From: Bernardetia sp. | Lineage (GTDB): Bacteria; Bacteroidota; Bacteroidia; Cytophagales; Bernardetiaceae | NCBI RefSeq assembly: GCF_020630935.1 | Contig: NZ_JAHDIG010000009.1 | Location: 1-64,000, forward strand | Length of the DNA: 64,000 nucleotides | Direction of reading: 5' to 3' | Shown: in pieces, positions 3,156 through 21,912 of the stretch | Layout of the letters: every line of letters starts with the position of its first letter | Numbering within the stretch: position 1 is the stretch's first letter | The notes under the pieces: model-generated | Databases searched by the model: none | What the model was told of the DNA's origin: nothing | Seen by the model: the letters and a program-made list of their open reading frames with translations, nothing else | Program-made: the position numbers and the translations under genes

Positions 3156-3181
3156 TTAAAGACAAAAGTTGAAATAAAATC

Positions 3182-3230
3182 GGGTGTATTGTTACACCAC
3201 CAAGTAATGATACACCCATTTTATTTTTTT
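3182..3230 (+). terminator. Hairpin with T tract between exbB and the rest of its operon
   Basis: GGGTGTAT (3182-3189) pairs with ATACACCC (3210-3217), with a further small TGTTACA-type pairing possible inside, followed by a T-rich tract. It looks like an intrinsic terminator or attenuator that lets exbB be expressed above the downstream genes. Confidence 0.65.
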
Positions 3231-3294
3231 CAAACTTAGAAATCACTTTCATTATCATTTCAAATCAGAATACTCATCATTAGATAAAAGAATT

Positions 3295-3822: not shown

Positions 3823-3835
3823 GAAATTTTCAATT

Positions 3836-4417
3836 ATGGGAAAGAAAAAACGTGAAGACCCAGGGGTAAATGCCAGTTCGATGGCAGATATTGCCTTTCT
3901 ACTCCTTATCTTTTTCTTGGTAACCACACGTATTGCTTCAGAGAAAGGTATTTATAGAGATTTAGCTCCCAAACCAGAAGGAGAAGTTCCTCCAGTAGAA
4001 CTCAATAAGCGAAACGTTTATAAAGTTATTATCAACTCTAGTAACGAACTCTTAATTGAAGGAGACGAAGGAAGAATAGGTCAGATAAAAAAAGAAGTCA
4101 AAGCACACGTAAATAACTACGGTGCAGACCCAGAACTTTCTGTAAGTCCGAAAGATGCTATTATTTCTATCAAAACAGACAGAGGTACAGATTATACTAC
4201 CTATCTTGCTGTTTTAGATGAAATTTTACAAGCCTACAACGAACTTAGAGCAGAATATCTGACAAAACAACTGGGCGAGAAAATTACTGTGGAAGATTTC
4301 TTAGAAATCTCTAGGCAGGACACACAAGTAAACAAAGACCGTTACAAAATGGCGAAAGATAAATATCCTCTCAATGTTTCTGATGCAGAGCCAACAGGAA
4401 GTGGAGGAGCAAAGTAA
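3836..4417 (+). CDS. exbD: ExbD/TolR-family biopolymer transport protein (first copy)
   Basis: A 193-residue ExbD/TolR protein. A short basic N-terminus precedes a single transmembrane helix (about 15-32, ASSMADIAFLLLIFFLVTT) that carries the essential Asp of the family at residue 18; this Asp takes part in proton flow with ExbB. The periplasmic part (35-193) is larger than in E. coli ExbD (141 residues) and ends in a Gly/Ser tail. It follows the small membrane protein by 13 bases and precedes a second, different ExbD by about 60 bases. Confidence 0.9.
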   Translation: MGKKKREDPGVNASSMADIAFLLLIFFLVTTRIASEKGIYRDLAPKPEGEVPPVELNKRNVYKVIINSSNELLIEGDEGRIGQIKKEVKAHVNNYGADPELSVSPKDAIISIKTDRGTDYTTYLAVLDEILQAYNELRAEYLTKQLGEKITVEDFLEISRQDTQVNKDRYKMAKDKYPLNVSDAEPTGSGGAK

Positions 4418-4476
4418 TTTAGCCAATTAGTAACCAATGAATTATACAGAAACAACATTTCTAAACTAGAAATAGC

Positions 4477-4932
4477 ATGCCTTTTAAAAAGAAAGCCAAA
4501 GCGAATCCAGAAATACCTACTTCTGCTTTACCAGATATTATTTTTATGTTACTTTTCTTCTTTATGGTTTCTACTGTAATGAGAGAAAATACACTTAAAG
4601 TAAACGTACTTTTGCCACAAGCAAATCAAGTACAGAAAATGGAAAAAGCCAATTTGGTAGCCAATATTTATATCGGTAAGCCAAAAGAAGCAGACCAGTT
4701 TGGTACAGCACCTCGTATTCAAGTAAATGATGTATTCATCAACTTAGACCAAATTCAACAGTTTGCGATAGAAGCTATGGCAAATGTACCCGAAGTAGAT
4801 AAAAATCGTTTTCGTGTAGCTATAAAAGGAGATGTTGGTTTGGATATGGGTGTAGTTATAGATGTTCGTGAAGAACTTCGTGAAACAGAAGCTCTCAAAA
4901 TCTATTATGCAGCCTCTAAAGGAGAAGAATAA
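4477..4932 (+). CDS. exbD: ExbD/TolR-family biopolymer transport protein (second copy)
   Basis: A 151-residue ExbD. A Lys-rich N-terminus leads into one transmembrane helix (about 17-35, SALPDIIFMLLFFFMVSTV) with the conserved Asp at residue 20. The periplasmic domain is shorter than in the neighbouring copy and only distantly similar, so the two are likely to form a hetero-oligomer or serve different TonB proteins (inference). It is the last gene of the operon and is followed by a strong terminator. Confidence 0.9.
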   Translation: MPFKKKAKANPEIPTSALPDIIFMLLFFFMVSTVMRENTLKVNVLLPQANQVQKMEKANLVANIYIGKPKEADQFGTAPRIQVNDVFINLDQIQQFAIEAMANVPEVDKNRFRVAIKGDVGLDMGVVIDVREELRETEALKIYYAASKGEE

Positions 4933-4957
4933 TCTCAATACTAATATTATATCTATT

Positions 4958-4994
4958 AAAAGTCATTTTCAAAAATTGAAAATGACTTTTTTTA
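4958..4994 (+). terminator. Terminator of the exbB-exbD-exbD operon
   Basis: A 13-bp perfect stem, AAAAGTCATTTTC (4958-4970) and GAAAATGACTTTT (4978-4990), with a 7-nt loop and a run of T. Confidence 0.85.
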
Positions 4995-5036
4995 TTGTAT
5001 ATTTATTCAGAATAACCTCTTCTAAATTAACTATAC

Positions 5037-5474
5037 ATGGAAAAGACACTTCTTACAGACATACAAAATGAGTTGGGAGATACGTATGCTCAATACTATA
5101 AATTGGAGCAGTATCCTCATATTCTACTTCAAGAATGGAAAGGCTTCTGTATGCCAGACGAACTCAAAACTGGTCATCAAAAAGTAATAGACTTAGTAAC
5201 TAAACACAAATTTACTCACTTAATTTCTGTAATTGTAGATATAGAGGGGTCATTTGAGGAAACAAACGAGTGGTTTCTGACAGAATTTAATCCTAAAATG
5301 GTAGAACTGGGAATGAAATACGAAGCCATTATTCAAAGTGAAAATCTTTTTGCACAGCTTTCAGCAGAAGAATTAGTAGAAGACAGCACACTCAAAGAGA
5401 TTGGCTACCACATGCGTTTATTTGACTCTGTAGAAAAAGGATTAGAATGGTTTGAGGAAAGTAAAAAATCTTAA
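5037..5474 (+). CDS. Small STAS-like (SpoIIAA-like fold) protein, paralogue of the gene at 14.7 kb
   Basis: A 145-residue soluble protein with no signal peptide. Its pattern (W-x-G near residue 35, a helix, a central hydrophobic strand HLISVIVDIEG, then AQLSAEELVE and a final FDSVEKGLEWFEES) resembles the SpoIIAA-like/STAS-SEC14 family and is shared with the protein at 14657-15058 (AQLSIEQVME, FDNVEEAREWI). Such proteins can be switch partners of SpoIIE-type phosphatases; that role is inferred from the phosphatases elsewhere in the window. Its TAA stop overlaps the stop of the convergent priA through the palindrome TTAA (5471-5474). Confidence 0.6.
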   Translation: MEKTLLTDIQNELGDTYAQYYKLEQYPHILLQEWKGFCMPDELKTGHQKVIDLVTKHKFTHLISVIVDIEGSFEETNEWFLTEFNPKMVELGMKYEAIIQSENLFAQLSAEELVEDSTLKEIGYHMRLFDSVEKGLEWFEESKKS

Positions 5475-8017
5475 ACAAAATCCACATCAACAACAACCTG
5501 AACTTTTTTAAAAGACTTGTCCTTATAAAGTTCATCTATTTGAGACTGAATAAAATCCTTTGTTTTTCCTAAAGCAAACTGACTGCGTTCTAATTTTATC
5601 AAAATAGCCTGTTGAAACTTATTTCGGATACGCTCAATAATAGGAGCTTCGGGTCCCAATACACGCTGATTTCCAAGTTTAGATTGTAATTTTTTAGATA
5701 AAATAATGGCTGCTTTATAGGCTGTTTCTCGCTCTTCGTGTCTAACCATTAGTTTTATAAGTCTTGAAAATGGTGGATAGAGATACTGCTCTCTTTCTAC
5801 AATTTCTTGATTATAAAAAGTCTGATAATCGTGCAAGCCAATGATAGAAAACAAAGGATGTGAAGGAGAATATGTTTGAATGACTACTTTTCCCTCTCCA
5901 CTTCTTCGTCCTGCACGCCCACTTACCTGCATAATAAGCTGCATAAAACGCTCTGATGAACGGAAATCTGGAAAAAATAAAATTCTATCAGCATCAAAAA
6001 CACCTACTAGATTTACCTTTTCAAAATCTAGCCCTTTGGTTATCATTTGAGTTCCAACCAAAATATCTATATCGTGCTTTTCAAAGGCTTCAATAATTTT
6101 TTCATAGCCTGTACGTGTGCGAGTAGTATCTTTATCCATTCTTGCAACTCTACTTTCTGGGAGCATTACTTGTAAGTCTTCCTCTATTTTTTGTGTTCCG
6201 AAACCTTTTGGATATACTTTGGTAGAACCACAAGCAGAACAGTTTTGAGGAACTTGCGTAGAAAAACCACAATAATGACAACGCAACTCTTGCGCTCTTT
6301 GATGATACGTCAAGCTAACCGAACAGTTCTGACATTCTGGAATCCATTCACATTCCTCGCAACTCAAAAAGGGTGCATATCCACGACGATTTTGAAAAAG
6401 TAAAATCTGCTCTTGCTGTTCTAAAGCTGTTTTCATTTGCTCAAAAAGCTCTAGCGTAAATTGTTCTTTGAGTTCTTTTCGTTTTTTAGATTCCCTCAAA
6501 TCTACAAGTTGTATTTGTGGCAGAGTAGCCTCACCAAAACGCTGTAAGACTTCTACCAAACCGTATTGTTTTTGCCGAGCTAAATAATAACTTTCTACTG
6601 ATGGCGTAGCCGAACCCAAAACAACCTTTGACTGATGTTTGTGCGCCAAAACAAGTGCAGCATCACGAGCGTGATAACGTGGCGCAGGGTCGTATTGCTT
6701 ATACGAAGGGTCGTGTTCTTCATCAATAATAATCAAGCCTAGATGTTCGAAAGGCAAAAAAACTGACGAACGAACACCAATCACAAAATTTATATCGCCA
6801 TTCAAAACGCCTTTCCACACTTCTACACGCTCATTATCTGAAAAACGAGAATGATACACTCCCACAGCATTTCCAAAAATACGCTTCAAACGCACTACGA
6901 TTTGGCTTGTAAGAGCAATTTCTGGCAAAAGCATCAAAACTTGACTTCCACTTTGTAGAACTTGTTCTATCAGACTGACATACATTTCTGTTTTTCCACT
7001 TCCTGTAACGCCGTGCAGTAAAACAGTAGATTTATCTTGAAAATGCTCAAAAATTTGATGAACAGCTTTTTCTTGGGTAGAAGTTAAATTTATACTTGAA
7101 GTTTCCTGTATCCAATCTTCAAACTCAAAACGAGACAGTGTTTTTTCAAATTCTTCAAATATTCCGTTTCTAATTAAGGTTTTGAGCGAACTAGGAGACA
7201 AATTTTCTCCTAAAAGTTCTTTCTTCGAAATGCTTTTAGGATAATCTTGTATAGGATTTTTGGAGAGATAAGTCAGCAAAACTTCTTCCTGTTTTTTGCT
7301 TCGTGTTGTGTGAGTAAAGGCTTTAGCAATTCCTTCTTGTGAAGCATATTTTTTGGCAATTCGAATTTGTTTTTCTTTAAGTGGGCTATATTTTTCCTTT
7401 AGCTCTTCAAAAATAATAACAATTCGCTTTTGCGTGAGTTTTTTGATGATTTGATAAATATCTCTTAAATTCAGTTTTTCCCCAGCTTGTTCGTAAGTAA
7501 GAGAGCTTTCTAATTCTAATAAATTGATAAGGTTAATTTCATCGTCTGACAGATTATATTCCTTTCTTTTTTGCTCAATGTCTTCCTTACCGATTCCACT
7601 TTTCCATTCTGGATGGAGTTGCAACCTACTCGTACTACTCAATTTCAAACCAGAAGGCAAGGCTGCATTCATTACTTCCCCAACAGAACACATATAGTAT
7701 GATGCAATCCACTGCCAAAACCAAAGCTGAGTAGGCGTAACCACTGGATTTTCATCTAAGAGTTCCAAAATATATCTTGCCGAATAGCCTTTAGGTGCTT
7801 TATCTGTAACAGATTTCACTATCCCCGTCAGTACTCTTTTTTTTCCGAAAGGAACAACCACACGAACACCTGTTTGAACAAAATCATTGAGTTCAAAAGG
7901 AATACGATAGGTAAAAGTAGTTTTGAGAGGCACAGGAATAATTACTTCAGCAAAAAGTGTTGTTCTTTCAGCAGAAGAAATATTTTGAGCATCAGAAAAG
8001 GATTGAAAAAGTGACAA
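5471..8017 (-). CDS. priA: Primosomal replication restart helicase PriA
   Basis: An 848-residue superfamily 2 DNA helicase that reloads the replisome at stalled forks. The N-terminal DNA-binding domain (about 20-120) begins FAEVIIPVPLKTTFTYRIP. The helicase core has Walker A GVTGSGKT (336-343), DEEH (432-435) and GSATPS (468-473). Eight Cys (553, 556, 562, 565, 580, 583, 593, 596) form the two zinc sites typical of PriA between the helicase lobes. The start is unusual: an in-frame stop lies five codons upstream and there is no ATG before the conserved domain, so TTG at 8015-8017 is the likely start codon. It stands alone and converges on the STAS-like gene with a 4-bp overlap. Confidence 0.95.
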   Translation of the reverse strand: MSLFQSFSDAQNISSAERTTLFAEVIIPVPLKTTFTYRIPFELNDFVQTGVRVVVPFGKKRVLTGIVKSVTDKAPKGYSARYILELLDENPVVTPTQLWFWQWIASYYMCSVGEVMNAALPSGLKLSSTSRLQLHPEWKSGIGKEDIEQKRKEYNLSDDEINLINLLELESSLTYEQAGEKLNLRDIYQIIKKLTQKRIVIIFEELKEKYSPLKEKQIRIAKKYASQEGIAKAFTHTTRSKKQEEVLLTYLSKNPIQDYPKSISKKELLGENLSPSSLKTLIRNGIFEEFEKTLSRFEFEDWIQETSSINLTSTQEKAVHQIFEHFQDKSTVLLHGVTGSGKTEMYVSLIEQVLQSGSQVLMLLPEIALTSQIVVRLKRIFGNAVGVYHSRFSDNERVEVWKGVLNGDINFVIGVRSSVFLPFEHLGLIIIDEEHDPSYKQYDPAPRYHARDAALVLAHKHQSKVVLGSATPSVESYYLARQKQYGLVEVLQRFGEATLPQIQLVDLRESKKRKELKEQFTLELFEQMKTALEQQEQILLFQNRRGYAPFLSCEECEWIPECQNCSVSLTYHQRAQELRCHYCGFSTQVPQNCSACGSTKVYPKGFGTQKIEEDLQVMLPESRVARMDKDTTRTRTGYEKIIEAFEKHDIDILVGTQMITKGLDFEKVNLVGVFDADRILFFPDFRSSERFMQLIMQVSGRAGRRSGEGKVVIQTYSPSHPLFSIIGLHDYQTFYNQEIVEREQYLYPPFSRLIKLMVRHEERETAYKAAIILSKKLQSKLGNQRVLGPEAPIIERIRNKFQQAILIKLERSQFALGKTKDFIQSQIDELYKDKSFKKVQVVVDVDFV

Positions 8018-8210
8018 ATTGAAGTAAAATTATATAACAAAACTAGAATAAAAGAAGCAACTGATTGTAAAGCAATGACTAATTGTATCAACAATTATTA
8101 GAGCAGCATTTTATTACTATAAACATACAAAGTTCGTCATTTTTATCAAAAAATCTCTTCTTATAACGACATATTGCTAATATTTTTAGATTACAGCTCG
8201 CATGCTATTT

Positions 8211-8238
8211 TTTGTTTAACTGAGGTTGATTATATTTG
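8211..8238 (+). promoter_or_regulatory. Possible promoter of the small Cys-rich protein gene
   Basis: TATATTTG (8231-8238) matches the Bacteroidota -7 element TAnnTTTG exactly, and TTTG at 8211-8214 could be the -33 element, though the 16-base spacer is shorter than usual. It lies about 50 bases before the start codon at 8288. Confidence 0.4.
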
Positions 8239-8287
8239 CTTTATATAACAAACAAACTTAAACAAATTAGATTATTCCCTTTATTTT

Positions 8288-8590
8288 ATGAAAACATCCT
8301 CTTGCCCTATTTGTCAAAATGAAATATTTTATGACTCTAACTATCCTAACGAACTTTGTAAATCTTGTGTAGGACGTGCTACTGACGGACATGGACGTTA
8401 TGTAAAGTTTTATAATCGCAACTTGGCAAGTGGAATAATTGGTTTTTATGCAGATGCCGACGGTAAAGAAGAATATGAGCATACGACGTGTTATGTAAGT
8501 AAGCAAAAATGCGAAGCCAAAGAAGCTCGTTTTGGAGGTGTAGTTATAGAATTGATACCCTCAAAAGATGGAAATTCAGAAAAAAAATAA
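8288..8590 (+). CDS. Small Cys-rich (zinc-ribbon-like) protein of unknown function
   Basis: A 100-residue protein that I do not recognise. Residues 6-9 (CPIC) and 24-27 (CKSC) form two CxxC knuckles 14 residues apart, which fits a zinc ribbon. After it comes a globular part with VKFYNRNLASGIIGFYAD, and a second pair of Cys in TTCYVSKQKC. There is no signal peptide or membrane segment. The gene stands alone between priA (divergent) and the ECF sigma factor, and has its own promoter-like site and a terminator-like hairpin, which supports it being real. Its role is unknown. Confidence 0.65.
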   Translation: MKTSSCPICQNEIFYDSNYPNELCKSCVGRATDGHGRYVKFYNRNLASGIIGFYADADGKEEYEHTTCYVSKQKCEAKEARFGGVVIELIPSKDGNSEKK

Positions 8591-8653
8591 ACTTTTTTGA
8601 AACTTTTTTTCAGTATTTGTAACCTTTCAAATTAGATTACGTTAGTTCAAGCA

Positions 8654-8689
8654 GTAGAGAAAACATTTTTTATTCTTTCTCTACTTTTA
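8654..8689 (+). terminator. Likely terminator of the small Cys-rich protein gene
   Basis: GTAGAGAAA (8654-8662) pairs perfectly with TTTCTCTAC (8676-8684), followed by TTTTAT. The T tract is short. Confidence 0.45.
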
Positions 8690-8857
8690 TATGAGTTTAG
8701 CCTAACTACTAGACTTCATTTTTTAACCTTAATTTTTGTTTTCTACATAGTTCACTATTCAAAAATTCATTTTCCATACGAACAAAAAGTCAAATTAGAT
8801 AGATTGTTGATTTTTGTATGCTTCATATAAAGTTTACATATCTATAATCTCTCAAAA

Positions 8858-8888
8858 TTTGGATTTAACGCAAAAAATGCTATATTTA
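8858..8888 (+). promoter_or_regulatory. Possible distal promoter of the ECF sigma gene
   Basis: TTTG (8858-8861), 19 bases, then TATATTTA (8881-8888) matches the Bacteroidota promoter pattern except at the last base. It would give a leader of about 160 nt; a stronger site lies closer to the gene. Confidence 0.3.
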
Positions 8889-8971
8889 GTAGTATTTGAA
8901 ATATAAATTTTCAAAACAATTGTACAAACAACCTTTTGTTCAACTTTTTTAACTAAATAATTACACAGAAA

Positions 8972-9003
8972 TTTGGATACTTGTTTAATAAATAGTAGAT
9001 TTG
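8972..9003 (+). promoter_or_regulatory. Strong Bacteroidota-type promoter of the ECF sigma gene
   Basis: TTTG (8972-8975), exactly 20 bases, then TAGATTTG (8996-9003). Both elements match the consensus TTTG / TAnnTTTG with ideal spacing. The start codon at 9058 follows after a leader of about 45 nt. Confidence 0.65.
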
Positions 9004-9057
9004 TATTAAACAAACTCAGAAAAAACATTTTTCTACAAACCCAAAATTTTTTTAACT

Positions 9058-9570
9058 ATGACAGCCTTCGAATTTGGATTTGCACTACAAAAAATAGCGT
9101 ATTCTTTACGTCCTTTCGCATTAAAACTTACTAAAGATTCTGATGAAGCTAATGATTTGCTTCAAGAAACTATCCTTAAAGCTTTCTCTAATCGTGAGAA
9201 ATTTACAGAAGGAACAAATCTTAAAGCTTGGTTATATACAATTATGAAAAATACGTTTATTACGAACTATCAGCGTTTGGTGCGTCGTAATACGTTTATT
9301 GACACAACTGAAAACTTACACTTTTTAAATTCTCCAAATCATGTTGCAGCTAATGGAGCGTATGGAGACTTTATGATGCAAGATGTAGTTCGTGCGATTG
9401 AGAAATTGGATGATGCTTACAAAGTACCATTTATGATGCATTTTAGAGGTTTCAAATATTATGAAATTGCAGAGCGTTTGGAAATCCCTATTGGTACAGT
9501 AAAAAACCGTATTCATATTGCCCGTAAGGAATTGAAAGGAAATCTGAAAGTATATGCTTCTAAAAACTAA
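9058..9570 (+). CDS. ECF-type RNA polymerase sigma factor
   Basis: A 170-residue sigma-70 family protein of the extracytoplasmic-function type. Region 2 spans about 10-80 (DEANDLLQETILKAF and a following LKAWLYTIMKNTFI helix that binds core polymerase and the -10 element). Region 4 spans about 112-163, with the helix-turn-helix FKYYEIAERLEIPIGTVKNRI. There is no region 1 or 3. No anti-sigma factor gene is adjacent. The next gene, after a terminator, is a phytoene/squalene synthase; ECF sigma genes beside carotenoid genes are a known pattern in several bacterial groups, so a link to carotenoid control is possible but inferred. Confidence 0.9.
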   Translation: MTAFEFGFALQKIAYSLRPFALKLTKDSDEANDLLQETILKAFSNREKFTEGTNLKAWLYTIMKNTFITNYQRLVRRNTFIDTTENLHFLNSPNHVAANGAYGDFMMQDVVRAIEKLDDAYKVPFMMHFRGFKYYEIAERLEIPIGTVKNRIHIARKELKGNLKVYASKN

Positions 9571-9593
9571 TGATTTTTTATAAAGAAAATAAA

Positions 9594-9634
9594 AAAAACG
9601 TACACTTTTTTCAAACAAAAGTGTGCGTTTTTTT
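9594..9634 (+). terminator. Terminator after the ECF sigma gene
   Basis: ACGTACACTTTT (9598-9609) pairs with AAAAGTGTGCGT (9617-9628) with one G-T pair; a run of A before it and a run of T after it extend the stem and supply the T tract. Confidence 0.8.
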
Positions 9635-9697
9635 ATTTTGACAATATAATCAACAACTTCACTATTCCGTTTTATAAGAAAAATTGTAAAGCTACTA

Positions 9698-10594
9698 ATG
9701 AACACTATTACCACTTCACCATCAACAAAAAAAATAGAAACTGATACGATTTCAGATTCTATGGCACTTTACAATACAACGGCTTTGAAGTGTAGTAAAC
9801 TCATTACACAACATTACAGCACTTCTTTTACGCTAGGTATTCAAACCCTTCATAAAAAGTTACATTTTCCTATTTATGCCATTTATGGATATGTACGCTA
9901 TGCTGATGAAATTGTAGATACTTTTCACAACAATGACAAGGCAAATTTACTTGCTCGTTTTAGAGAAGATACATACAGAGCGATTGATGAAAAAATAAGC
10001 ACTAATCCTGTTATACATTCTTTTCAACTTGTGGTGGACAAATATTCTATCGAAACTGAGCTTATAGAAGCCTTTTTGGAAAGCATGAAAATGGATTTAG
10101 ACAAAAAAGAATACAATAGCCATAAATATAACGAGTATATTTATGGTTCGGCAGAAGTGGTAGGACTGATGTGCTTGAGAGTCTTTTGTGAGAATGATAG
10201 TGAGCTTTATGAAAGTTTGAAGGCTGGAGCAAGAAGTCTTGGTGCTGCTTTTCAAAAAGTCAATTTTTTAAGAGATATGAAAAGCGATTTTGATGAGCGT
10301 GGAAGAGTATATTTCCCAAATGTCAATTATTCTAAGTTTGATGCAAATGCAAAAATTCAAATAGAAAATGATATTCAGAAAGATTTTGATGCAGCTTATG
10401 AGGCTATATTGAGACTTCCTAAAACCTCAAGAATGGGAGTTTATTTGGCATACGTATATTATCTCAAACTCTTTAATAAAATAAAACAATCTTCAGCACA
10501 AACTATTCTTTCGAAGCGTGTTCGTGTGCCAGATAGTAGAAAAATGGTATTATTGCTCAAAAGTTATGTCAAACATCATTTAAATTATATTTAG
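9698..10594 (+). CDS. crtB: Phytoene/squalene synthase family protein
   Basis: A 298-residue trans-isoprenyl diphosphate synthase, most likely phytoene synthase, which condenses two geranylgeranyl diphosphates to start carotenoid synthesis. Both Asp-rich metal-binding motifs are present: YVRYADEIVDTF (about 68-79) and QKVNFLRDMKSDFDERGRVYFP (from about 187). The closely placed YSTSF near residue 40 is also typical. No desaturase (crtI) or cyclase gene is adjacent, so squalene synthase cannot be ruled out from context. A second in-frame ATG at 9761 (MALYNTTALK) fits the usual N-terminus of the family and may be the true start. Confidence 0.88.
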   Translation: MNTITTSPSTKKIETDTISDSMALYNTTALKCSKLITQHYSTSFTLGIQTLHKKLHFPIYAIYGYVRYADEIVDTFHNNDKANLLARFREDTYRAIDEKISTNPVIHSFQLVVDKYSIETELIEAFLESMKMDLDKKEYNSHKYNEYIYGSAEVVGLMCLRVFCENDSELYESLKAGARSLGAAFQKVNFLRDMKSDFDERGRVYFPNVNYSKFDANAKIQIENDIQKDFDAAYEAILRLPKTSRMGVYLAYVYYLKLFNKIKQSSAQTILSKRVRVPDSRKMVLLLKSYVKHHLNYI

Positions 10595-10604
10595 AATAAA
10601 AAAG

Positions 10605-10640
10605 CTCGTAGAAATAAGATTTTTCCACGAGTTTTTATTT
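10605..10640. terminator. Shared terminator between crtB and the SiaC-like gene
   Basis: CTCGT-a-GAAA pairs with TTTC-c-ACGAG, flanked by A and T runs, so it can work in both directions for these convergent genes. Confidence 0.65.
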
Positions 10641-10645
10641 TTGTA

Positions 10646-11044
10646 TTAGTAACTCATAATATTTAGTTTAAGATCACTCTCATCCATAAAATCTTCTCCC
10701 TCTATTCTCATATCATCGTGGTCTTCTTCAGGATAATACCAATTTACTGTAATTTTCTTTCCTTTCTTCTCATAGTCCTTTAAAAGCCTAAACAAATCAA
10801 GAATTGCTCTTGATGAGCTGGTATTAAAATATGATAATTTGCAATCTATAGTTACTTTTTCGTGTAGTTTAAAATATTCTTCAAACCATTTGTTTAGATT
10901 TTCATAAAACTCAAAAGCATCTTCTAAATATGACTCACCTTCTAAACGGCAGTACTCTTCATCTGCATTAAAGTTTACATAAGGAACAAAATGAGTTCCT
11001 TCTTTAGCTTGAACCACTAAATTTTTTCCATTTTCTAAAAACAT
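10646..11044 (-). CDS. SiaC-family regulatory phosphoprotein (DUF1987)
   Basis: A 132-residue soluble protein of the SiaC/DUF1987 family. Typical features are the N-terminal beta segment, the LEGESYLEDAFEFYENLNKWFEEYF stretch (split here at residues 34-58), and the motif YFNTSSSRAILDLF (72-85), whose Thr75 aligns with the Thr that SiaB phosphorylates in Pseudomonas SiaC. In that system unphosphorylated SiaC activates the diguanylate cyclase SiaD. No such cyclase is in this window, so the target here is unknown. It is the last gene of a STAS-like / PAS-SpoIIE / SiaB / SiaC run, 33 bases after the kinase gene. Confidence 0.85.
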   Translation of the reverse strand: MFLENGKNLVVQAKEGTHFVPYVNFNADEEYCRLEGESYLEDAFEFYENLNKWFEEYFKLHEKVTIDCKLSYFNTSSSRAILDLFRLLKDYEKKGKKITVNWYYPEEDHDDMRIEGEDFMDESDLKLNIMSY

Positions 11045-11077
11045 AGTTATATAATAGTTAATAATTTTTGATAAGAT

Positions 11078-11647
11078 TTATTTCTCAATAGTAGATGAAA
11101 TAATAAAAAATGAATTTATGTCATCTATTACTTTAGCTTGTACGTGCAAGGGATGCTCAGATTTTAGAGCTACCTGTATGAGTCCAATATTTCCTCCTAT
11201 GTGGTCAGTTTTTCGCTCTTGGCTTCTGACTTCTTTTTTTAATTCTCTAAGTTGTTCTGTACTTAGTGAGTTTATTTTTTCACACTTTATTATAATATCT
11301 TGGACTTTATCTGTTGGAACAAGATTTCCAGCACTCAGAATAATTTCATCACCTTCACTATGGATCACTACAGTTCCTACTCCATGGTTTTTTACACGGT
11401 CATTTTCTCCATATAGAATATTTTTCTCTTTTGAATCATCATAAAAAAAATTAGATTCAGCTGAGTAATAAGAAATATTTTGTGCTAACTCTATAAAAAT
11501 AGAAAATAATTTGGCACTCATACGTGGGTTATCTGCAAACCTACGACGTAGCTGTGAGCTAATATTTGCTAAAATTTCTCTATCAAAAGGTCCTTTGTAG
11601 TAAAGAACTGCACTCTGAGGGTTTAATATGTTATGGTAGTCGACCAT
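11078..11647 (-). CDS. SiaB-family protein kinase
   Basis: A 189-residue protein of the SiaB kinase family (GHKL-like fold), which phosphorylates SiaC-type partners. The N-box-like helix IFIELAQNISYYSAE (about 50-64) supplies the E and N that bind Mg-ATP, and a second glycine-rich segment GGNIGLIQVALK (about 151-162) closes the nucleotide site. It sits between the PAS/SpoIIE phosphatase gene (47 bases upstream) and the SiaC-like gene (33 bases downstream), so kinase, phosphatase and substrate are very probably co-transcribed, as in siaABC of Pseudomonas. Confidence 0.85.
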   Translation of the reverse strand: MVDYHNILNPQSAVLYYKGPFDREILANISSQLRRRFADNPRMSAKLFSIFIELAQNISYYSAESNFFYDDSKEKNILYGENDRVKNHGVGTVVIHSEGDEIILSAGNLVPTDKVQDIIIKCEKINSLSTEQLRELKKEVRSQERKTDHIGGNIGLIQVALKSEHPLHVQAKVIDDINSFFIISSTIEK

Positions 11648-11694
11648 AATGATTAGTTTTTTGAGATTAAAAAATAAGTTTTATTAGTAATAAT

Positions 11695-14499
11695 CTAAAC
11701 TCTAAAACCAATCAGTGTAATATCATCTCTTTGAGCTGTATCTTTCTGATGGTCTTCAAGTTGGGCTATAAATATTTTACCTTGTTCTTTCATGGATAAC
11801 TGTCCTACTTCTTGTATGAGTTCTCTAAACCTTTTTTTAGAAAAACTCTTTCGTTCCTCATTGGCTTGGTCTGCATAACCATCAGTAGCTAAATAAATGG
11901 CGTCCTTTGCCTCCAGTATAATACTTTCTTGTTCATACTTTCTATCATCTAGCCTTTTACTTCCCCCAATGGAACGACGATTGCCTCTAAGCTCTAAGAG
12001 TTCTTGTCCTCGGCAGAGATATAGATTTTGTTTTACTCCACCAAAAGTAAGTCTAGTAGTATTGTCAGTTGCTGGTTCTAATAAACAAAGTGATAAATCC
12101 ATTCCATCATTATTTGCCCCTTCTCTCTGATTGAGTTTTTGTACAACTCCCTTATGAAGTTCATTAAGGATGAGATTAGGTTGTATAATACCTCTTTGAT
12201 TTATAATTTCGTTCAATAAATTATTTGCCACCAAGCTCATAAATGCTCCTGGTACGCCATGTCCTGTGCAGTCAATTACACCAATAAGTATTTTATTTTC
12301 ATGACTAGAAAGCCAATAAGCATCTCCAGAAACAATATCTTTAGGCTTATATATTATAAAACTCTCAGACAACAAATTATCAAAACTACTTTGAGGTGGT
12401 AAAAACGCACTCTGAATAGTTTGAGCATACTGAATACTTTTTGTAGTTTGTTTGTTGGTTAGTTCTAGTTCTTCTTTTTGATTTGCCAATACTTCTTGTG
12501 TAGCATGTAACTCTTCCATGTTTTGCCTCAACTCTTCTTCTTGAGTTTGTAACTGCTCTACACTTTCCTTTAAAACATATTCCTGTTTTTTCATTTTTTC
12601 TAAAGCCTTTTTCAAAACAGCTTCATTTGCCTCTAGTTTTGATTTTTGCTTTTCTACCAAAATCTGTTTTTTTACCATTTCCTCTTGTGTAGCACTCAAC
12701 TCTTCCATGTTTTGCCTCAATTCTTCTTCTTGACTTTGTAGCTCTTCTACCGTGTCTTTGAGGTCTGATTCTTGAATTTTCATCTTACTCAATGCTTTTT
12801 TGAGGATAGCTTCACTAGAAAAGAGTTTCTTGTTTTGTTTTTCTACCAACTCTTGTTTCTCCAACATTTCCTCTTGTGTCATTTGCAGAATCTCCATATT
12901 TTGGCGTAATTCCATTTCAGAAAGTAGGAGTTTCTCATTTTGTTCTTGTATGAGTGCTTCTTTACTTTTTTGTTCTGTAATATCTTCATACATCCCTAAA
13001 ACACCAAATACTTTCCCTTTTTCATCTCTGAGAGGTATTTTATTTGTTCTAACCCATCTTTCTTTTCCATCTGCTGTAATTTGTGGTTCAACAATTCCTA
13101 GTTTAGGTTCGTTTTGTTCCATTATTTGCTTATCATCTTTACGATATAAGCCAGCATGCTTAGCCCATGGCATATCAAAATCACTTTTTCCTATAATTTC
13201 GTCAGCACAATCTTTTCCAGCCCCCTCTGCAAATAATTTATTACAACCTAAATAATTAAAATCTAAATCTTTCCAAAAAACAGCTTGAGGAATGTTGGCG
13301 ATGATAAGTTCAGATAGGTTTTTTTCTACAAATAATTCTTTTTGAAGTCTTCTGAGTTCTTGTTCCTCTTCTTTTCTTTTGGTAATATCTGCATGCGCCC
13401 CAGCCATACGCATAGGGTTTCCATCCTTATCTCTAAGTAAAGCTCCTCTAGTATGAATCCATTTTATACCTCCATCTTTGGTTTTCATTCTGAACTCTAT
13501 ATCATAGTCTTTTATTTTCCCTTCAAGAAACTGATTTAAGTTTTCTGATACTCTTTCTTTATCCTCTTCATATAGAAGTTCATTAAAGGTATCAAAAGAA
13601 TTGGCAAGCTCATCTTCTTTATACCCTAACATTTCTTTCCATCTTGGAGCAAAATAAATTGTATTGGTTAGAATTTGCCAATCCCAAATACCATCAGCAG
13701 TTCCCCGTACGGCTAAATGAAACTGTTCAGCTTGTTTTCGTAGTTTTTCTTGTACATTTTGAATTTCAAACTCTTTTTCTTTCTTATCTGTAATCAAATA
13801 TCGAATAGAGAGATAACTCATTACTTTGCCATTATTATCTAGCATTGGGTTAATGACCGTATCGACCCAATAATGAGAACCATCTTTGGCTTTATTTTTT
13901 ACATCTGCTCTCCACGTCTTGCCTCTTGAAATATCTTGCCACATCTGTTGCCAAAACTCCTTGGTATGATAACCCGAATTGACAATATTATGGTCTTTGC
14001 CTATAAGTTCTTCTTCACTATACTTTGAAACTTTACAAAACTCTTTATTTACTTTTGTAATTTTACCTTTTTTATCTGCAATAGAAATAATGGCACTTCT
14101 GTCTAGTGCTTCTGTGATAGCTTTTAATTGTTGATGATGATGTTGCTCTTCTGCATTACCACGCAAAATAACCTGTGTTAGCATTTTATCACCTATTTCT
14201 AGTTTTGATAAAAATACTTTTGTAGGAATAATCTTTTTGTTGCTTTCAAAATTCCAATCAAACTCTGTTTTACCTTCTTTACCACATGTTTCCAAATAAG
14301 AAAGTAGCTGCGTGTTTGTTTGAGAATGATTAGCAGAAAAGTTTGATAGCTTTTTGCCCAACAGTTGCTGTTCGTCATCTATCTTCAAGAGCTTTTGAGC
14401 AAGCGCATTACTAGAAATAATTTCTTCATTTTCAAGAAGTAGAATTGCATCTGGATAGTTTGAGTAAAAAGATGTATATAATTGTAAAGTGTTCCCCAT
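11695..14499 (-). CDS. Multi-PAS sensor with SpoIIE-type PP2C phosphatase domain (SiaA-like role)
   Basis: A 934-residue cytoplasmic protein without membrane segments. A PAS-like domain (about 5-110) is followed by three PAS/PAC domains (about 128-240, 255-378 and 392-512). A long coiled coil (512-685) contains a tandem repeat of exactly 63 residues, with ELRQNME at 530, 593 and 656. The phosphatase domain (about 688-934) keeps the metal-binding Asp residues: DCTGHGVPGAFMS (743-755), NDGMDLSL (797-804), ATDGYADQ (871-878) and RDDITLIG (924-931). It should dephosphorylate a switch protein when the PAS domains sense a signal. The following genes are a SiaB kinase and SiaC, which makes SiaC the likely substrate (inference). 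Confidence 0.92.
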   Translation of the reverse strand: MGNTLQLYTSFYSNYPDAILLLENEEIISSNALAQKLLKIDDEQQLLGKKLSNFSANHSQTNTQLLSYLETCGKEGKTEFDWNFESNKKIIPTKVFLSKLEIGDKMLTQVILRGNAEEQHHHQQLKAITEALDRSAIISIADKKGKITKVNKEFCKVSKYSEEELIGKDHNIVNSGYHTKEFWQQMWQDISRGKTWRADVKNKAKDGSHYWVDTVINPMLDNNGKVMSYLSIRYLITDKKEKEFEIQNVQEKLRKQAEQFHLAVRGTADGIWDWQILTNTIYFAPRWKEMLGYKEDELANSFDTFNELLYEEDKERVSENLNQFLEGKIKDYDIEFRMKTKDGGIKWIHTRGALLRDKDGNPMRMAGAHADITKRKEEEQELRRLQKELFVEKNLSELIIANIPQAVFWKDLDFNYLGCNKLFAEGAGKDCADEIIGKSDFDMPWAKHAGLYRKDDKQIMEQNEPKLGIVEPQITADGKERWVRTNKIPLRDEKGKVFGVLGMYEDITEQKSKEALIQEQNEKLLLSEMELRQNMEILQMTQEEMLEKQELVEKQNKKLFSSEAILKKALSKMKIQESDLKDTVEELQSQEEELRQNMEELSATQEEMVKKQILVEKQKSKLEANEAVLKKALEKMKKQEYVLKESVEQLQTQEEELRQNMEELHATQEVLANQKEELELTNKQTTKSIQYAQTIQSAFLPPQSSFDNLLSESFIIYKPKDIVSGDAYWLSSHENKILIGVIDCTGHGVPGAFMSLVANNLLNEIINQRGIIQPNLILNELHKGVVQKLNQREGANNDGMDLSLCLLEPATDNTTRLTFGGVKQNLYLCRGQELLELRGNRRSIGGSKRLDDRKYEQESIILEAKDAIYLATDGYADQANEERKSFSKKRFRELIQEVGQLSMKEQGKIFIAQLEDHQKDTAQRDDITLIGFRV
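12466..12912 (-). repeat. Coding tandem repeat, 189-bp period, in the coiled coil
   Basis: Residues 530-592 and 593-655 of the PAS/SpoIIE protein are two copies of a 63-residue unit, and a third partial copy starts at 656. 63 residues is nine heptads, so the repeat keeps the coiled-coil register. Confidence 0.85.
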
Positions 14500-14656
14500 T
14501 TTTAAATTCCTTTAAAACAACTAGATAGTGGTAAATCGTTTGTCAAATATTGTTTTGATTTTTTAATTAATTATAAAGCTAGAGTACTCAAGATTTTGCT
14601 TTTATTTTATAGCTCAACAATGGCAACATATCCAGCACTCTCCTAGAAAATATATT

Positions 14657-15058
14657 TTACATCATAATCCATTCTCTAGCCTCTTCTACATTATCAAAAT
14701 ATTGTGTTGTTATCTTTTGCCCTTCTTTTTCTTCCATCACTTGCTCTATGGAAAGCTGTGCCAAAAACTCGGAACTCATCACAACAGCTAACTTGTGAAA
14801 ACCAACTTCTATAGCAGGAACAAAAACATTAATATTCATCCACTCTTGTGTATCTGGATTTACCACAAAACCTAAATCTTTTACATTTCCTACTACTTTT
14901 TGTGTTTTCTGTTCTAGCATAAACTTTAGAAGTTCTAAATGCTCATTTCTATACTCTTCATCAGTCATATCAACAGTTGCTTTTAGCCAAGTCAGCTCTA
15001 GTAGTTTTTGGTCGTCAAAGGCATCTATTTGTAGAAAGTTACTGTTATATACTTGCAT
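14657..15058 (-). CDS. Small STAS-like (SpoIIAA-like fold) protein upstream of the phosphatase
   Basis: A 133-residue soluble protein. It resembles the 145-residue protein at 5037-5474 over its whole length: a W near residue 24, a middle block EWMNINVFVPAIEVGFHKLAVV, then FLAQLSIEQVMEE and the ending YFDNVEEAREWI. The pattern fits the SpoIIAA-like/STAS-SEC14 group. It is transcribed towards the PAS/SpoIIE phosphatase gene with a gap of 157 bases, so it may be the first gene of that operon and a second switch protein. The family call is from pattern only and needs a profile search. Confidence 0.6.
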   Translation of the reverse strand: MQVYNSNFLQIDAFDDQKLLELTWLKATVDMTDEEYRNEHLELLKFMLEQKTQKVVGNVKDLGFVVNPDTQEWMNINVFVPAIEVGFHKLAVVMSSEFLAQLSIEQVMEEKEGQKITTQYFDNVEEAREWIMM

Positions 15059-15275
15059 AAAAATATGATATATGTGTAATAAAAAAATTGTGGTTATAGA
15101 ATCATAGAGACTGACACTAAAGACCTATTATTTTGAGAAGTAGAAAAATTAATTACCGACTAAATATAAAAAAAATAATAAAGTTAAAAAAGCGATTTTC
15201 TATGATTTATAAGTAATAGCTGACTAAAATTTATTTTACCTAAAAAATCTATTTATGTAGCCTATAAAAAATGTA

Positions 15276-15322
15276 CAAATAAAAAGCACCAAGTATGACA
15301 AACAATATTAACTTGGTGCTTT
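15276..15322 (-). terminator. Terminator of the M28 peptidase gene
   Basis: AAAGCACCAAGT (15283-15294) pairs with ACTTGGTGCTTT (15311-15322), a 12-bp perfect stem. On the - strand it is followed by TTTTTATTTG. The 296-base gap on either side holds nothing else recognised. Confidence 0.85.
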
Positions 15323-15354
15323 GTACTTAAAAAAACTCTAATGACTTAATCCTG

Positions 15355-16932
15355 TTAATCATTCTTAATTCTCTCTTTTCTATTGACAAGCTCCCAAGCT
15401 GTGGCAAAAACTAATCTACTTATTGCTTCCATTTTTCCAAAATGAATTTTATCTACCTCGTCAGTGTGTTGGTGATAGTCTTCATGAACTCCATTAAAAT
15501 AAAAGATGACCGGAATGTCGTGTTTTGCAAAATTGTAATGGTCTGAACGATAATAAAAACGATTTGGGTCGTCTTTAGAATTGTAAGTATAATCTAACTT
15601 TACGTTTGGAGCATACATTTTAGCTGTTGCTTCACTAAGATTGTGTAATTCTGTTGAAAGCATTGTAGAACCAATAATATAAACATAATTTGGATTTCCT
15701 TCGTGAGCTTTATCCATTCTTCCAATCATATCAATATTGAGATTAGAGACTGTATTTTTGAGAGGGAAAACAGGGTTGTCAGAATAATAACTAGAGCCTA
15801 AAAGTCCTTTTTCCTCACCAGTAACGAGCATAAATAATATACTTCTGTGTGGTGCATTGCCCTCACTTTTTGCCTTAGCAAATGCCTCTGCAAGTTCTAA
15901 AATGGCTGTTGTTCCAGAGCCATCATCATCTGCTCCATTATGGATTTTTCCATCAATGATTCCGATATGGTCGTAGTGTGCTGTCAATACTATGAGTTCT
16001 TCTTTTTTGTCTGTTCCTTCTAAATATCCCAGTACATTTTCAGTTTCTACTTTTTCTATTTTAGTTTCAGAAAAAACATTAGCTTTGCCTTCCAAAATAT
16101 TTTTCTTTTTATTCCATTTCTTAAATACTTTATTCCATTTTTTGTCGGTATAGCCTAAAAGATTTGGAAGTTTGTCAGTAGTAGAAAGAGCCATCAAAAA
16201 ATCTGGAGTATCTTGCTTTTTTTCAGAAGGCAATTCCCATTTTGGATCTTTGAAGTAATGCCCATACATCTGGTCGAAGAGTGTATATTCTGACTTACCT
16301 GTTACGAAAATAACCCCCTTTGCTCCTTTTTCTTTAGCTAATTTGGCTTTAAATCTCATCTGTAAATAAATAGACTTTCTAGCTTCTTCGTCTGGAATAA
16401 GGCTTTCCTTGCCTTTTGGAATGCCTGTCATTACAACAGCAATTTTATTCTTTACATCAATATTTCGGTAGGATGAAAAACCATTTTCATTTTTATCTTC
16501 TAGTCCGTAACCAGCAAAGACAATATCATAATCTTCTTTATTTCTATCTTCTTTGAAAGAATTTACAACAATAATTTCATTTTTAGACAATTCAATTTTT
16601 CCTGTAAGTGTTTCTACTCTAAATTCAGTAAGACTCGTTTTGTTGATGATAAATTTCTGAAAATAAGAACCATTTACAGGAGCATCTAGCCCTAGTTTCT
16701 TGAAGTGATTAGCGATATATTCGGCTGCCATTTTTTGTCCTTTCTCTCCAGTTTCCCTTCCTTCGTATTCATCAGAAGCTAAAATGGAAAGATGTTTTTC
16801 CATATCCTTTTCATTGATATGTTGAACATATTTGAGCAAAAGGGAATCTTTTTGTTGTGCAAATACAGAGGAACAAAAAAGAAATAAAGACAAAACCAAA
16901 AGCGTGATTTTGTGTGTAGAAATTTTAAACAT
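15355..16932 (-). CDS. Secreted M28-family zinc aminopeptidase
   Basis: A 525-residue exported metallopeptidase. A signal peptide (about 1-25) is cleaved at FA|QQ. The M28 fold has the two-zinc ligands in order: H in TAHYDHIG, D in NGADDDGSG, the catalytic and binding E pair in TGEEKGLLGSS, D in NIDMIGRMD, and the last H in YHQHTDEVD. An insert between the N-terminal part and the zinc site (about 115-280, containing VFAGYGLEDK and AKGVIFVTG) fits a PA-like lid domain. It is probably periplasmic or secreted and cleaves N-terminal residues from peptides. It is monocistronic, with its own terminator. Confidence 0.9.
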   Translation of the reverse strand: MFKISTHKITLLVLSLFLFCSSVFAQQKDSLLLKYVQHINEKDMEKHLSILASDEYEGRETGEKGQKMAAEYIANHFKKLGLDAPVNGSYFQKFIINKTSLTEFRVETLTGKIELSKNEIIVVNSFKEDRNKEDYDIVFAGYGLEDKNENGFSSYRNIDVKNKIAVVMTGIPKGKESLIPDEEARKSIYLQMRFKAKLAKEKGAKGVIFVTGKSEYTLFDQMYGHYFKDPKWELPSEKKQDTPDFLMALSTTDKLPNLLGYTDKKWNKVFKKWNKKKNILEGKANVFSETKIEKVETENVLGYLEGTDKKEELIVLTAHYDHIGIIDGKIHNGADDDGSGTTAILELAEAFAKAKSEGNAPHRSILFMLVTGEEKGLLGSSYYSDNPVFPLKNTVSNLNIDMIGRMDKAHEGNPNYVYIIGSTMLSTELHNLSEATAKMYAPNVKLDYTYNSKDDPNRFYYRSDHYNFAKHDIPVIFYFNGVHEDYHQHTDEVDKIHFGKMEAISRLVFATAWELVNRKERIKND

Positions 16933-19512: not shown

Positions 19513-21912
19513 CTACACTTGAAACCCTACCACAATCACATCATCAATTTGTTTGTTATTTCCTTTCCAGTCGTCAAACTCTTGTGCAAGGAGCTGTCTT
19601 TGCCTTACCATAGGTTCTTTATGAATATCTAAAAGCAGTTGCTTGAACCTTTTAGTCATAAACTTACGATTTTGCTTTCCTCCAAACTGGTCGACATACC
19701 CATCAGAAAAAATGTAGAAAGTAGTAGGTTCATCAAAATTTACTTGATGTGAAGTATAAGCATTCTCTGCTTTTGTTTGGAAGCCTCCAACAGAATGTTT
19801 GTCTCCTTTTATCTCAAAAATAGTTTCGTTTTGGATGTAAAGAAGTGGACGCTTTGCACCTGCAAAAGTAACGTGTTTTTGTTCTAAATCTATTACACAG
19901 ATGGAAATATCCATTCCGTCTTTATTCTCTGTGCTAGATTGGCGTAAAGCTCTACGAATTTGTCCGTGCAGACGGCTCAAAATAGAATCTGCCTTTGTTA
20001 TGCCTTGCAAATTAACAATCTGATTGAGATAAGAGTCACCCAAAATAGACATAAATGCCCCTGGAACACCGTGTCCAGTACAGTCGGCAGCAGCTACAAT
20101 AATTTGATTGTCTTTCTTAGCAAACCAATAAAAATCTCCAGAAACAATATCTCTAGGCTTGTAGAGAATGAAACAATTTGGAATATTCTTTTTAAAGGTT
20201 CTCAAATCTGGTAAAACAGCATCTTGAATACGTCTTGCATAATTTATACTAGAAGTGATGTCGTTGTTGCGCTTTTCCATCAAGCCTTTTTGCTCCATTA
20301 AGGAAGTATTTATGGCTTCTATCTCTTCTTTTTGTTGTTCTATTTCTACTGTTCTTTGCTTTACCTTTTTCTCTAAAAGTGTAGTTGTTTCTTTTTGTAG
20401 CTCTAAGTTTTCTGCGAGTGCATCTGACTTTTCTCTCTCTAGTCGATTGACTTGATAGCCAATTCCTAGCGCATAAAATACTAACTGAACCACTACTCCA
20501 GCTTGAAATAAATACGTAAATATATCAGATTCTACTTCTACACCATTCAAATAGAATAAATATGACATCGCATAAAAGAAACCTCCTATTAATAATCCAC
20601 TTGTAGCAATAAGGTAATAACGAGCTGCTAGATATCCTTTTCGAAGTGTCATTACCCCAATCATAAATGCAAGGATAATAGAAATTAAAGCAATAGAGAG
20701 AATAATGAGCAGTGAATATCCACCAATGTTTACTTTGTCATTCCAGTCGGGCGTAGAAGAGAGTAAGTTATTGGAAATATAGGCAATAACAGCAATAGCT
20801 AATACGTAATTGATACCATTGATAATCTTGTTCCATTTTGGCAATAACTCTTTTACATTTAAAAAACTCTTTAAAAACAACAGCCCTCCACCAATCATAA
20901 ATAAATGAGATATCACGATACAAGAACGTATAAGAAGGTGGGAAGTAGGGAATAGGAAATAAATATATCTGTAATAGTAAAAAACATTGAGTTGTATTCC
21001 TACAATCATCAAGACATAGTAGATATAGAGTTTGTCTCTAATAATAAAAAACAGAAGAAGATTATAGAACGCCATTACCCACAAAATCCCTTGAAAAATT
21101 CCTTGTGCATACGTAAACTCATCTGCTCCTTGTCTGACATTTGCAGCATCTTCTATAAAAGCATAAATAAATTTGGGATGGAAACGCTTTGCATTGGAGT
21201 GTATTCTAATATAAACAGTAACCTCTGATTCGGATGGCACATCAATATTAAAATAATTGCGCCATTGTTTTACAGGTTTATTTTCTGGGTCTACATCAGT
21301 TCCTGAACGTTCTATGCGAAAGGCTTCATCTTCTACTGGCTCATAAAAAATAATTTCTGACCACGTTTCAAACACAGAACCAACTTGCAAAGCTACATTT
21401 TCATCTCTTACTCCATTTCCCACCAGTTTTACACGTATCCAATAGTAAGCACCCACTTCCATATTGGCATAAGTAATATTATTTTTACTAAAAGTAATAT
21501 TCGGATTATTGATAATATCCTCAATCGTAGCAGTTCCATTTGTTGTATCTTTCCAAATACCTAAACTTTCCTTAATACGAGTTTGCCCTTTTTTGGGAAG
21601 CTCTAATGGCAAAATATACTTAAACTTTAGATTTTGTTTTTCTGAAAGAAAGTAGTTGAATTTTTTTGTGTTTTTTTCTTTATAAAACTGTATGAGAGAG
21701 TCTAAGATAGCTAGTTGCTGGGTAGAATCTGATGAAGATAGTTTTGCTATATGATTCAACTTTTCAAACTCCGTCTCTAGTTTTTGAGCAGAGAATGCAA
21801 GAGAACTATCCAAAAGAAAAATGGTAGTGTCTTGTTGTCCGTTTGCAGTATTAGCATAAAATACGACAAAGAGGTTAATTAAAAAGTAAAATATATAGCC
21901 TCTCGGCATCAT
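19513..21912 (-). CDS. 7TM-DISM receptor with SpoIIE-type PP2C phosphatase domain
   Basis: A 799-residue membrane receptor. A signal peptide is cleaved at ANG|QQ (25/26). The periplasmic part (about 90-250) contains a sensory DISMED2-like beta domain (YYWIRVKLVGNG, then VTVYIRIHSN). Seven transmembrane helices follow (about 268-485), the 7TM-DISM arrangement, then a coiled coil (488-550) and a SpoIIE phosphatase domain (about 552-799). Metal ligands are kept: DCTGHGVPGAFMS (610-622), KDGMDISICV, FSDGYVDQFG and DDVIVVGF. It should turn an outside signal into dephosphorylation of a switch protein. The substrate is not encoded next to it. Confidence 0.92.
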   Translation of the reverse strand: MMPRGYIFYFLINLFVVFYANTANGQQDTTIFLLDSSLAFSAQKLETEFEKLNHIAKLSSSDSTQQLAILDSLIQFYKEKNTKKFNYFLSEKQNLKFKYILPLELPKKGQTRIKESLGIWKDTTNGTATIEDIINNPNITFSKNNITYANMEVGAYYWIRVKLVGNGVRDENVALQVGSVFETWSEIIFYEPVEDEAFRIERSGTDVDPENKPVKQWRNYFNIDVPSESEVTVYIRIHSNAKRFHPKFIYAFIEDAANVRQGADEFTYAQGIFQGILWVMAFYNLLLFFIIRDKLYIYYVLMIVGIQLNVFYYYRYIYFLFPTSHLLIRSCIVISHLFMIGGGLLFLKSFLNVKELLPKWNKIINGINYVLAIAVIAYISNNLLSSTPDWNDKVNIGGYSLLIILSIALISIILAFMIGVMTLRKGYLAARYYLIATSGLLIGGFFYAMSYLFYLNGVEVESDIFTYLFQAGVVVQLVFYALGIGYQVNRLEREKSDALAENLELQKETTTLLEKKVKQRTVEIEQQKEEIEAINTSLMEQKGLMEKRNNDITSSINYARRIQDAVLPDLRTFKKNIPNCFILYKPRDIVSGDFYWFAKKDNQIIVAAADCTGHGVPGAFMSILGDSYLNQIVNLQGITKADSILSRLHGQIRRALRQSSTENKDGMDISICVIDLEQKHVTFAGAKRPLLYIQNETIFEIKGDKHSVGGFQTKAENAYTSHQVNFDEPTTFYIFSDGYVDQFGGKQNRKFMTKRFKQLLLDIHKEPMVRQRQLLAQEFDDWKGNNKQIDDVIVVGFQV

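Follow-up and report, generated by a model that had tools for sequence, protein, structure and literature searches.

A SiaABC-type partner switch in Bernardetia, probably with an output other than cyclic-di-GMP

Genes of the locus and their products

The window, i.e., the whole 64,000-nucleotide stretch of Bernardetia sp. DNA analysed, carries between positions 10646 and 15058 four open reading frames on the - strand. They lie in the order originally predicted from the sequence (STAS-like protein, phosphatase, kinase, phosphoprotein), and their Pfam identities agree with that prediction. The genes are closely spaced, with intergenic gaps, from the head gene to the SiaC gene, of 157, 47, and 33 bases. 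The features of the locus are as follows:

14657..15058, - strand: SpoIIAA-like (STAS-like) protein of 133 aa, the head gene of the cluster (PF11964, 4.2e-5)
11695..14499, - strand: multi-PAS SpoIIE (PP2C) phosphatase of 934 aa, soluble, SiaA-like in its C-terminal part
11698..12297, - strand: SpoIIE phosphatase domain, with GDAYW (from residue 725), DCTGHG (743), TDGYAD (872), and RDDITL (924)
11078..11647, - strand: SiaB-family Ser/Thr kinase (DUF6272) of 189 aa (PF19788, 4.4e-31; NF038262; PDB 6kko_A)
11477..11494, - strand: SiaB motif IELAQN, residues 52-57, aligned with IEMTQN of PDB 6kko_A
10646..11044, - strand: SiaC phosphoprotein of 132 aa (PF09345, 1.5e-37; PDB 6kko_C and 6k4f, 4e-11)
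10820..10822, - strand: codon of Thr75, the predicted phosphorylation site in YFNTSS (the Thr of NTSS, aligned with T68 of SiaC)

The set resembles the SiaABCD system of Pseudomonas aeruginosa in having a SiaB kinase, a SiaC protein with the Y-x-N-T-S site, and a SpoIIE/PP2C phosphatase. The window SiaB scores 126 bits with the NF038262 (SiaB_fam_kinase) model, whose cut-off is 85, and aligns with 6kko_A at 1e-11; its IELAQN motif is presumably the kinase N-box. SiaC scores 128.4 bits with PF09345 (cut-off 24.5), and the YFNTSS motif with Thr75 that had been read in it is confirmed, the residue aligned with Thr75 being Thr in 103 of the 105 aligned SiaC proteins and Ser in the other two. Of the SiaC residues contacting SiaD, the window copy retains Y31, Y65, N67, T68, and S69, with Asp in place of E110, but D79 is replaced by R, R103 by D, L107 by E, and I71 by S. 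The phosphatase matches the Pfam SpoIIE family (2.6e-20, 73.6 bits against a cut-off of 25), with several PAS matches besides. The NCBIfam equivalog cut-offs were missed for all three proteins: the SiaA model, aligned to residues 644-934 of the phosphatase, gave 215.6 bits of the 700 set, the SiaB model 65.2 of 225, and the SiaC model 76.6 of 150. The metal-site motifs of the phosphatase are present as strings; they were set by eye against the residues D457, D474, G477, D600, G601, and D653, which PMC7647112 names as the metal site of SiaA.

The locus differs from its Pseudomonas counterpart in the sensing part, since the window phosphatase is soluble and carries PAS domains, whereas SiaA is described, in the available text of PMC12834913, as a membrane protein. 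No hydrophobic segment was found in the 934-aa window phosphatase, and one, marginal, in its counterpart in the genus member G396. Another difference is the extra SpoIIAA-like gene of the window locus.

RsbU-RsbW-RsbV and SpoIIE-SpoIIAB-SpoIIAA are partner switches following the same logic, with a PP2C phosphatase, a GHKL-type kinase, and a small STAS-like phosphoprotein. In the window, however, the kinase is of the DUF6272/SiaB and not the HATPase_c_2 type, and the phosphoprotein is SiaC and not a STAS protein. A Pfam search found neither a HATPase_c_2 kinase nor a STAS antagonist among the four window proteins; the matches to these families in the genome (seven HATPase_c_2 and four STAS) lie on other contigs.

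The cluster with the SpoIIAA-like gene upstream is found in five of the seven genus genomes (G000, G396, G397, G399, and G400); in G395 and G398, whose SiaC loci were read in part, the search with the SpoIIAA-like protein gave no close orthologue of the head gene. The four window genes are under purifying selection, with dN/dS values against genus relatives of 0.07-0.23 where dS could be estimated; the values are approximate, as synonymous substitution is almost saturated (one SiaC pair was left out on this account). Elsewhere in the window there are two more SpoIIE phosphatase genes (19513-21912 and 49499-54799) and a second, distant SpoIIAA-like protein (5037-5474, + strand), and just past the window two further SpoIIE matches lie on the same contig.

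The head gene had been regarded as a sign of a second partner. A role as a second phospho-partner is not supported, the protein being STAS-like at most and lacking a conserved phospho-acceptor. It stands just under the cut-off of the SpoIIAA-like family PF11964 (24.7 bits against 25), which is matched at E<=0.01 by 11 of its 16 relatives in the alignment. The alignment of the 16 relatives contains no invariant Ser/Thr column, and on this ground the role of a classical STAS phospho-partner was rejected. The family is paralogous, with nine matches in the Bernardetia genome and 4-18 per genome in 11 genomes of the family; together with the missing Ser/Thr column, this makes the head gene unlike a typical phospho-accepting STAS partner. 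Its orthologue adjoins the phosphatase gene in G396, G397, and G400; in G399 it is a shorter frame on a small contig, where the match is split in two with a stop in one part, so the gene may be broken there.

Partner exchange according to phosphorylation is the way in which RsbV and RsbW act, and the SpoIIAA-like protein could itself be the output partner, exchanged by SiaC or SiaB depending on phosphorylation and carrying the signal onward. Its gene lies upstream of the phosphatase gene in all five genus copies of the locus seen, with 70-75% identity and dN/dS of 0.07-0.14 in the genus; a second or third SpoIIAA-like gene is present in G396 and G400, and contig C51 (L016) has two other such genes at a distance of about 5 kb from its SiaB-SiaC pair. 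Such a role is nevertheless unlikely in view of the absent Ser/Thr column, the numerous family matches per genome, and the possible break in G399. Moreover, five SpoIIAA-like loci elsewhere (L220-L224) have no SiaB, SiaC, or SpoIIE gene alongside, and of the six in the 20% of the genome that was read only the head gene of the cluster adjoins SpoIIE or SiaB.

SiaC, SiaB, and SpoIIE genes in the genome and the order

The single locus of the original prediction turned out to be part of a larger set. The Bernardetia genome contains seven SiaC and six SiaB genes amid 76 SpoIIE matches, two of which look like halves of one gene, so that about 75 are to be counted. Across 59 genomes of the order (Cytophagales) the number of SiaC copies ranges from 0 to 42 and follows that of SpoIIE, with a Spearman coefficient of 0.89, in which counts of 45 or more are first-look estimates and general expansion of signalling genes is left uncorrected. 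On 22 family means the coefficient is 0.91, whether or not genome size is removed. In the 16 genomes devoid of SiaC there are 0-4 SpoIIE matches each.

The surroundings of 92 SiaC genes were read, mostly the better-scoring of 237 matches in the 59 genomes, in 88 stretches around SiaC or SiaB (L162, L229, and L235, in which no SiaC gene was called, are left out of the SiaC tables). SiaB lies immediately upstream of 72 of the 92, and three more are SiaB-SiaC fusions; a SpoIIE gene is found within two genes upstream of 28. For 61, no known Sia gene lies downstream on the same strand, and neither of the two recurrent neighbours, a TerB-ABC transporter gene and a stalk gene, is present there.

Several variants of gene arrangement were seen. 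Natural SiaB-SiaC fusions occur in L136, L145, L249, L251, and L252 (L136 and L252 represent the same contig, as do L145 and L251) and, separately, in L163; the two lineages have different neighbours. An attempt to derive the SiaB-SiaC interface from the L252 fusion was abandoned, the prediction (pTM 0.51) leaving the two domains unplaceable. Three tandem SiaB genes precede one SiaC gene in L164 (G405), and three tandem SiaC genes are present in L161 (G440). L019 (8294-9058) codes for a divergent 254-aa protein with the SiaC domain in its C-terminal half, a very long branch, and Ala at the residue aligned with N67.

The SiaC tree was built from 133 rows with few alignment columns, exact duplicates and a 96-aa fragment in L176 being left out. 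The window SiaC falls in a clade of 13 rows (support 100/98) together with copies from families f67 and f74, the L163 fusion, and the first SiaC of loci ordered SpoIIE-SiaB-SiaC-SpoIIE-SiaC. No member of this clade has a stalk or an ABC gene as a neighbour, and because of this the neighbours name no target for the window SiaC. Another Bernardetia copy, on contig C49, nests among stalk-linked SiaC proteins without a stalk gene alongside. Sixteen of the 17 ABC-linked SiaC proteins form one clade (100/99). Three metagenome records labelled Bifidobacterium, Thalassovita, and Rickettsiales (L244, L254, and L269) carry SiaC proteins nesting among those of Bacteroidota and are probably mislabelled or mixed bins.

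A gene for a TerB-ABC-ABC2 protein follows SiaC in 16 of the 92 cases, frequently in the order CheR-CheB-GAF protein-SpoIIE-SiaB-SiaC-ABC. The Bernardetia genome itself has a TerB-ABC-linked SiaC on contig C2 (L018). This locus (2838-16588) comprises, in order, CheR, CheB, a GAF protein, a SpoIIE phosphatase with dCache, HAMP, GAF, and PAS domains, SiaB, SiaC, the TerB/ABC transporter, and two proteins with signal-like starts, as judged by eye; the names of its che and TerB parts were taken from the related locus L180. Comparable arrangements are found in nine families of the Cytophagales and suggest a methylation-tuned phosphatase signalling to a transporter.

A locus with no separate target could also be accounted for by SiaC serving as a phosphate hub at which SpoIIE sensors and SiaB kinases cross-talk, the output going through other SiaC paralogues, e.g., the one beside the TerB-ABC transporter. 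The numerical disproportion between SpoIIE and the few SiaC and SiaB genes of one genome agrees with it, and so do two loci of other composition, one on contig C16 where SpoIIE and SiaB are paired but SiaC is absent, and one on C46 where SiaC lacks a SiaB gene. The predominant pairing of SiaB with SiaC genes suggests private pairs instead, and the SiaC clades follow their neighbours; cross-talk of this kind is therefore rather improbable, slightly more so than an output through the SpoIIAA-like protein. The reading preferred here is that the window SiaC has a target of its own, encoded elsewhere in the genome.

Diguanylate cyclase genes and the stalk beside SiaC

The system of Pseudomonas includes the cyclase SiaD, whereas the Bernardetia genome has no GGDEF gene. 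The original prediction had noted this for the window and proposed a search of the whole genome, which proved empty: there are 0 GGDEF matches in the entire assembly, the model used having found matches in 8 of 14 control genomes. Of the 59 genomes examined in the order, 43 contain SiaC, and no GGDEF match occurs in any of these; the sole GGDEF match is a partial one, in a genome lacking SiaC. These results support the prediction of a SiaABC-type switch that senses through a soluble PAS protein and does not act through a diguanylate cyclase. Beyond the order, some genomes have both SiaC and GGDEF. In a sample of 395 genomes of the phylum, GGDEF was found in 203 and SiaC in 22, of which 16 have GGDEF and six lack it. 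In family f30 the SiaC-bearing members have 6-9 GGDEF genes, and a gene joining the stalk to GGDEF lies beside SiaC in four of the six loci read (L225, L226, L227, and L230, the last in two pieces), a stalk-histidine kinase taking this position in L228. Since these stalk-GGDEF genes were found, a SiaD-like gene would have been detected. In families f18, f24, f26, f34, and f36 there is mostly one weak GGDEF match per genome (about 1e-6 to 1e-15), which may represent one conserved non-cyclase gene.

That a cyclase is present but was missed, through a gap in the assembly (a draft of 153 contigs, 97.4% complete) or divergence too great for the GGDEF model, is highly improbable, as GGDEF is equally absent from six other genus members, one of them a single 4.9 Mb contig, and from every SiaC-bearing genome of the order, while the model recovers it in half of the phylum sample, including SiaD-like proteins beside SiaC.

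The lack of a GGDEF gene noted for the window thus extends to the genome, and relatives show variants of a stalk in the place of the cyclase. In 10 of the 92 cases SiaC is followed by a gene for a protein of about 170 aa without a Pfam match, which BLAST clustering groups with the f30 protein that resembles SiaD and carries GGDEF. The part common to the two is a helical stretch with LITKVSDRLQ, after which the stalk protein has a membrane hairpin where SiaD has GGDEF. The stalk of SiaD contacts SiaC through residues including V78, R80, I81, S82, D83, R84, and Q86, as listed in the accessible part of PMC8457831. PDB 7e6g has the repeats RIARISDGFQ and KVARISDRYQ, the latter at the position of these residues and comparable with the stalk motif. 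In a search with a profile of 39 stalks from non-GGDEF proteins, 7e6g was the best of 177,635 PDB sequences, with a weak E value of 0.043, closely followed by two DnaJ chains (0.05 and 0.076); in the alignment SDRLQ falls on SDRYQ with the SiaC-contact residues in register. When the query was residues 1-103 of a SiaD relative, 7e6g came second to another cyclase (E 0.44). AlphaFold2 predicts for the stalk protein of L237 two helices, 28-120 and 125-171 (pLDDT 84, pTM 0.43). A docking motif like that of SiaD, S/G-D-x-x-Q in a long predicted helix, is thus kept beside SiaC in relatives.

A pattern derived from the motif matches 17 of 1,713 proteins, 16 of which are stalk proteins beside SiaC, and misses those of L146 and L149; having been made from the stalk proteins themselves, it is not independent evidence. 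A scan of the collection with stalk proteins alone, SiaC not being used, yielded 40 loci, 36 of them with SiaC adjoining (the exceptions are L253, L258, L275, and L276). Seven of the 40 are the query's own loci (L237, L239, L251, L252, L262, L266, and L270), chosen for having SiaC, and the count beyond them is therefore 29 of 33. A hydrophobic segment is present in 38 of the 40 stalk proteins found by the scan. The stalk occurs fused to GGDEF (L225 and L227), to SpoIIE (L236), to a histidine kinase (L228, and also L275, which has no SiaC alongside), and alone (L232 and L233).

The search for a stalk protein in the 965 kb of the Bernardetia genome that was read (20%) gave none, the best chance match having an E value of 0.041. 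The coiled coil preceding the SpoIIE domain of the window phosphatase was considered as a docking stalk and rejected, as it was picked neither by the stalk profile (E<=10) nor by the motif.

Proposed working of the switch and its meaning

Judged from its sequence, the window locus probably encodes a SiaABC-type partner switch with an output other than cyclic-di-GMP. SiaB would phosphorylate SiaC at Thr75, and the soluble PAS-SpoIIE phosphatase would strip the phosphate upon a PAS signal, perhaps also upon a signal of the SpoIIAA-like protein. In Pseudomonas, unphosphorylated SiaC binds and activates, according to the available parts of two studies (PMC8457831 and PMC12834913). If the direction is the same in Bernardetia, unphosphorylated SiaC would grip a helical target and alter its assembly. 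In relatives the gripped element would be the stalk, as its motif and neighbourhood suggest, and the window SiaC would act by the same gripping on its target elsewhere in the genome. Many of the SpoIIE sensors would converge on the few SiaC proteins.

More generally, SiaC may plausibly be a clamp controlled by Thr phosphorylation and acting on a portable helical docking stalk carried by varied effectors (GGDEF, a histidine kinase, a SpoIIE phosphatase, or a membrane hairpin), and not a dedicated cyclase activator. In the Cytophagales this clamp may have become the basis of an extensive Ser/Thr network free of c-di-GMP, with the signals of dozens of SpoIIE sensor phosphatases entering a small number of SiaB-SiaC hubs. 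The authors of the SiaC structure suggest, in the accessible part of their paper and without giving a case, that the SiaC family modulates adjacent proteins (PMC8457831).

In the literature found, SiaC appears solely as the activator of one diguanylate cyclase. A search of open PMC papers gave no match for DUF6272 or the SiaC family, and none dealing with SpoIIE partner switching in Bacteroidetes or with SpoIIE in Cytophagales; a classification of PP2C phosphatases covers SpoIIE and Bacteroidota, with neither SiaA nor Cytophagales in the portion available (PMC12088040). In the order studied here, the switch is retained and present in many copies although no cyclase was detected. The genes neighbouring SiaC point to specific proteins as candidate outputs in place of the cyclase, and the short motif S-D-x-x-Q is a site at which they could be mutated. 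Such a network would offer a purpose for the large sets of SpoIIE phosphatases in the Cytophagales.
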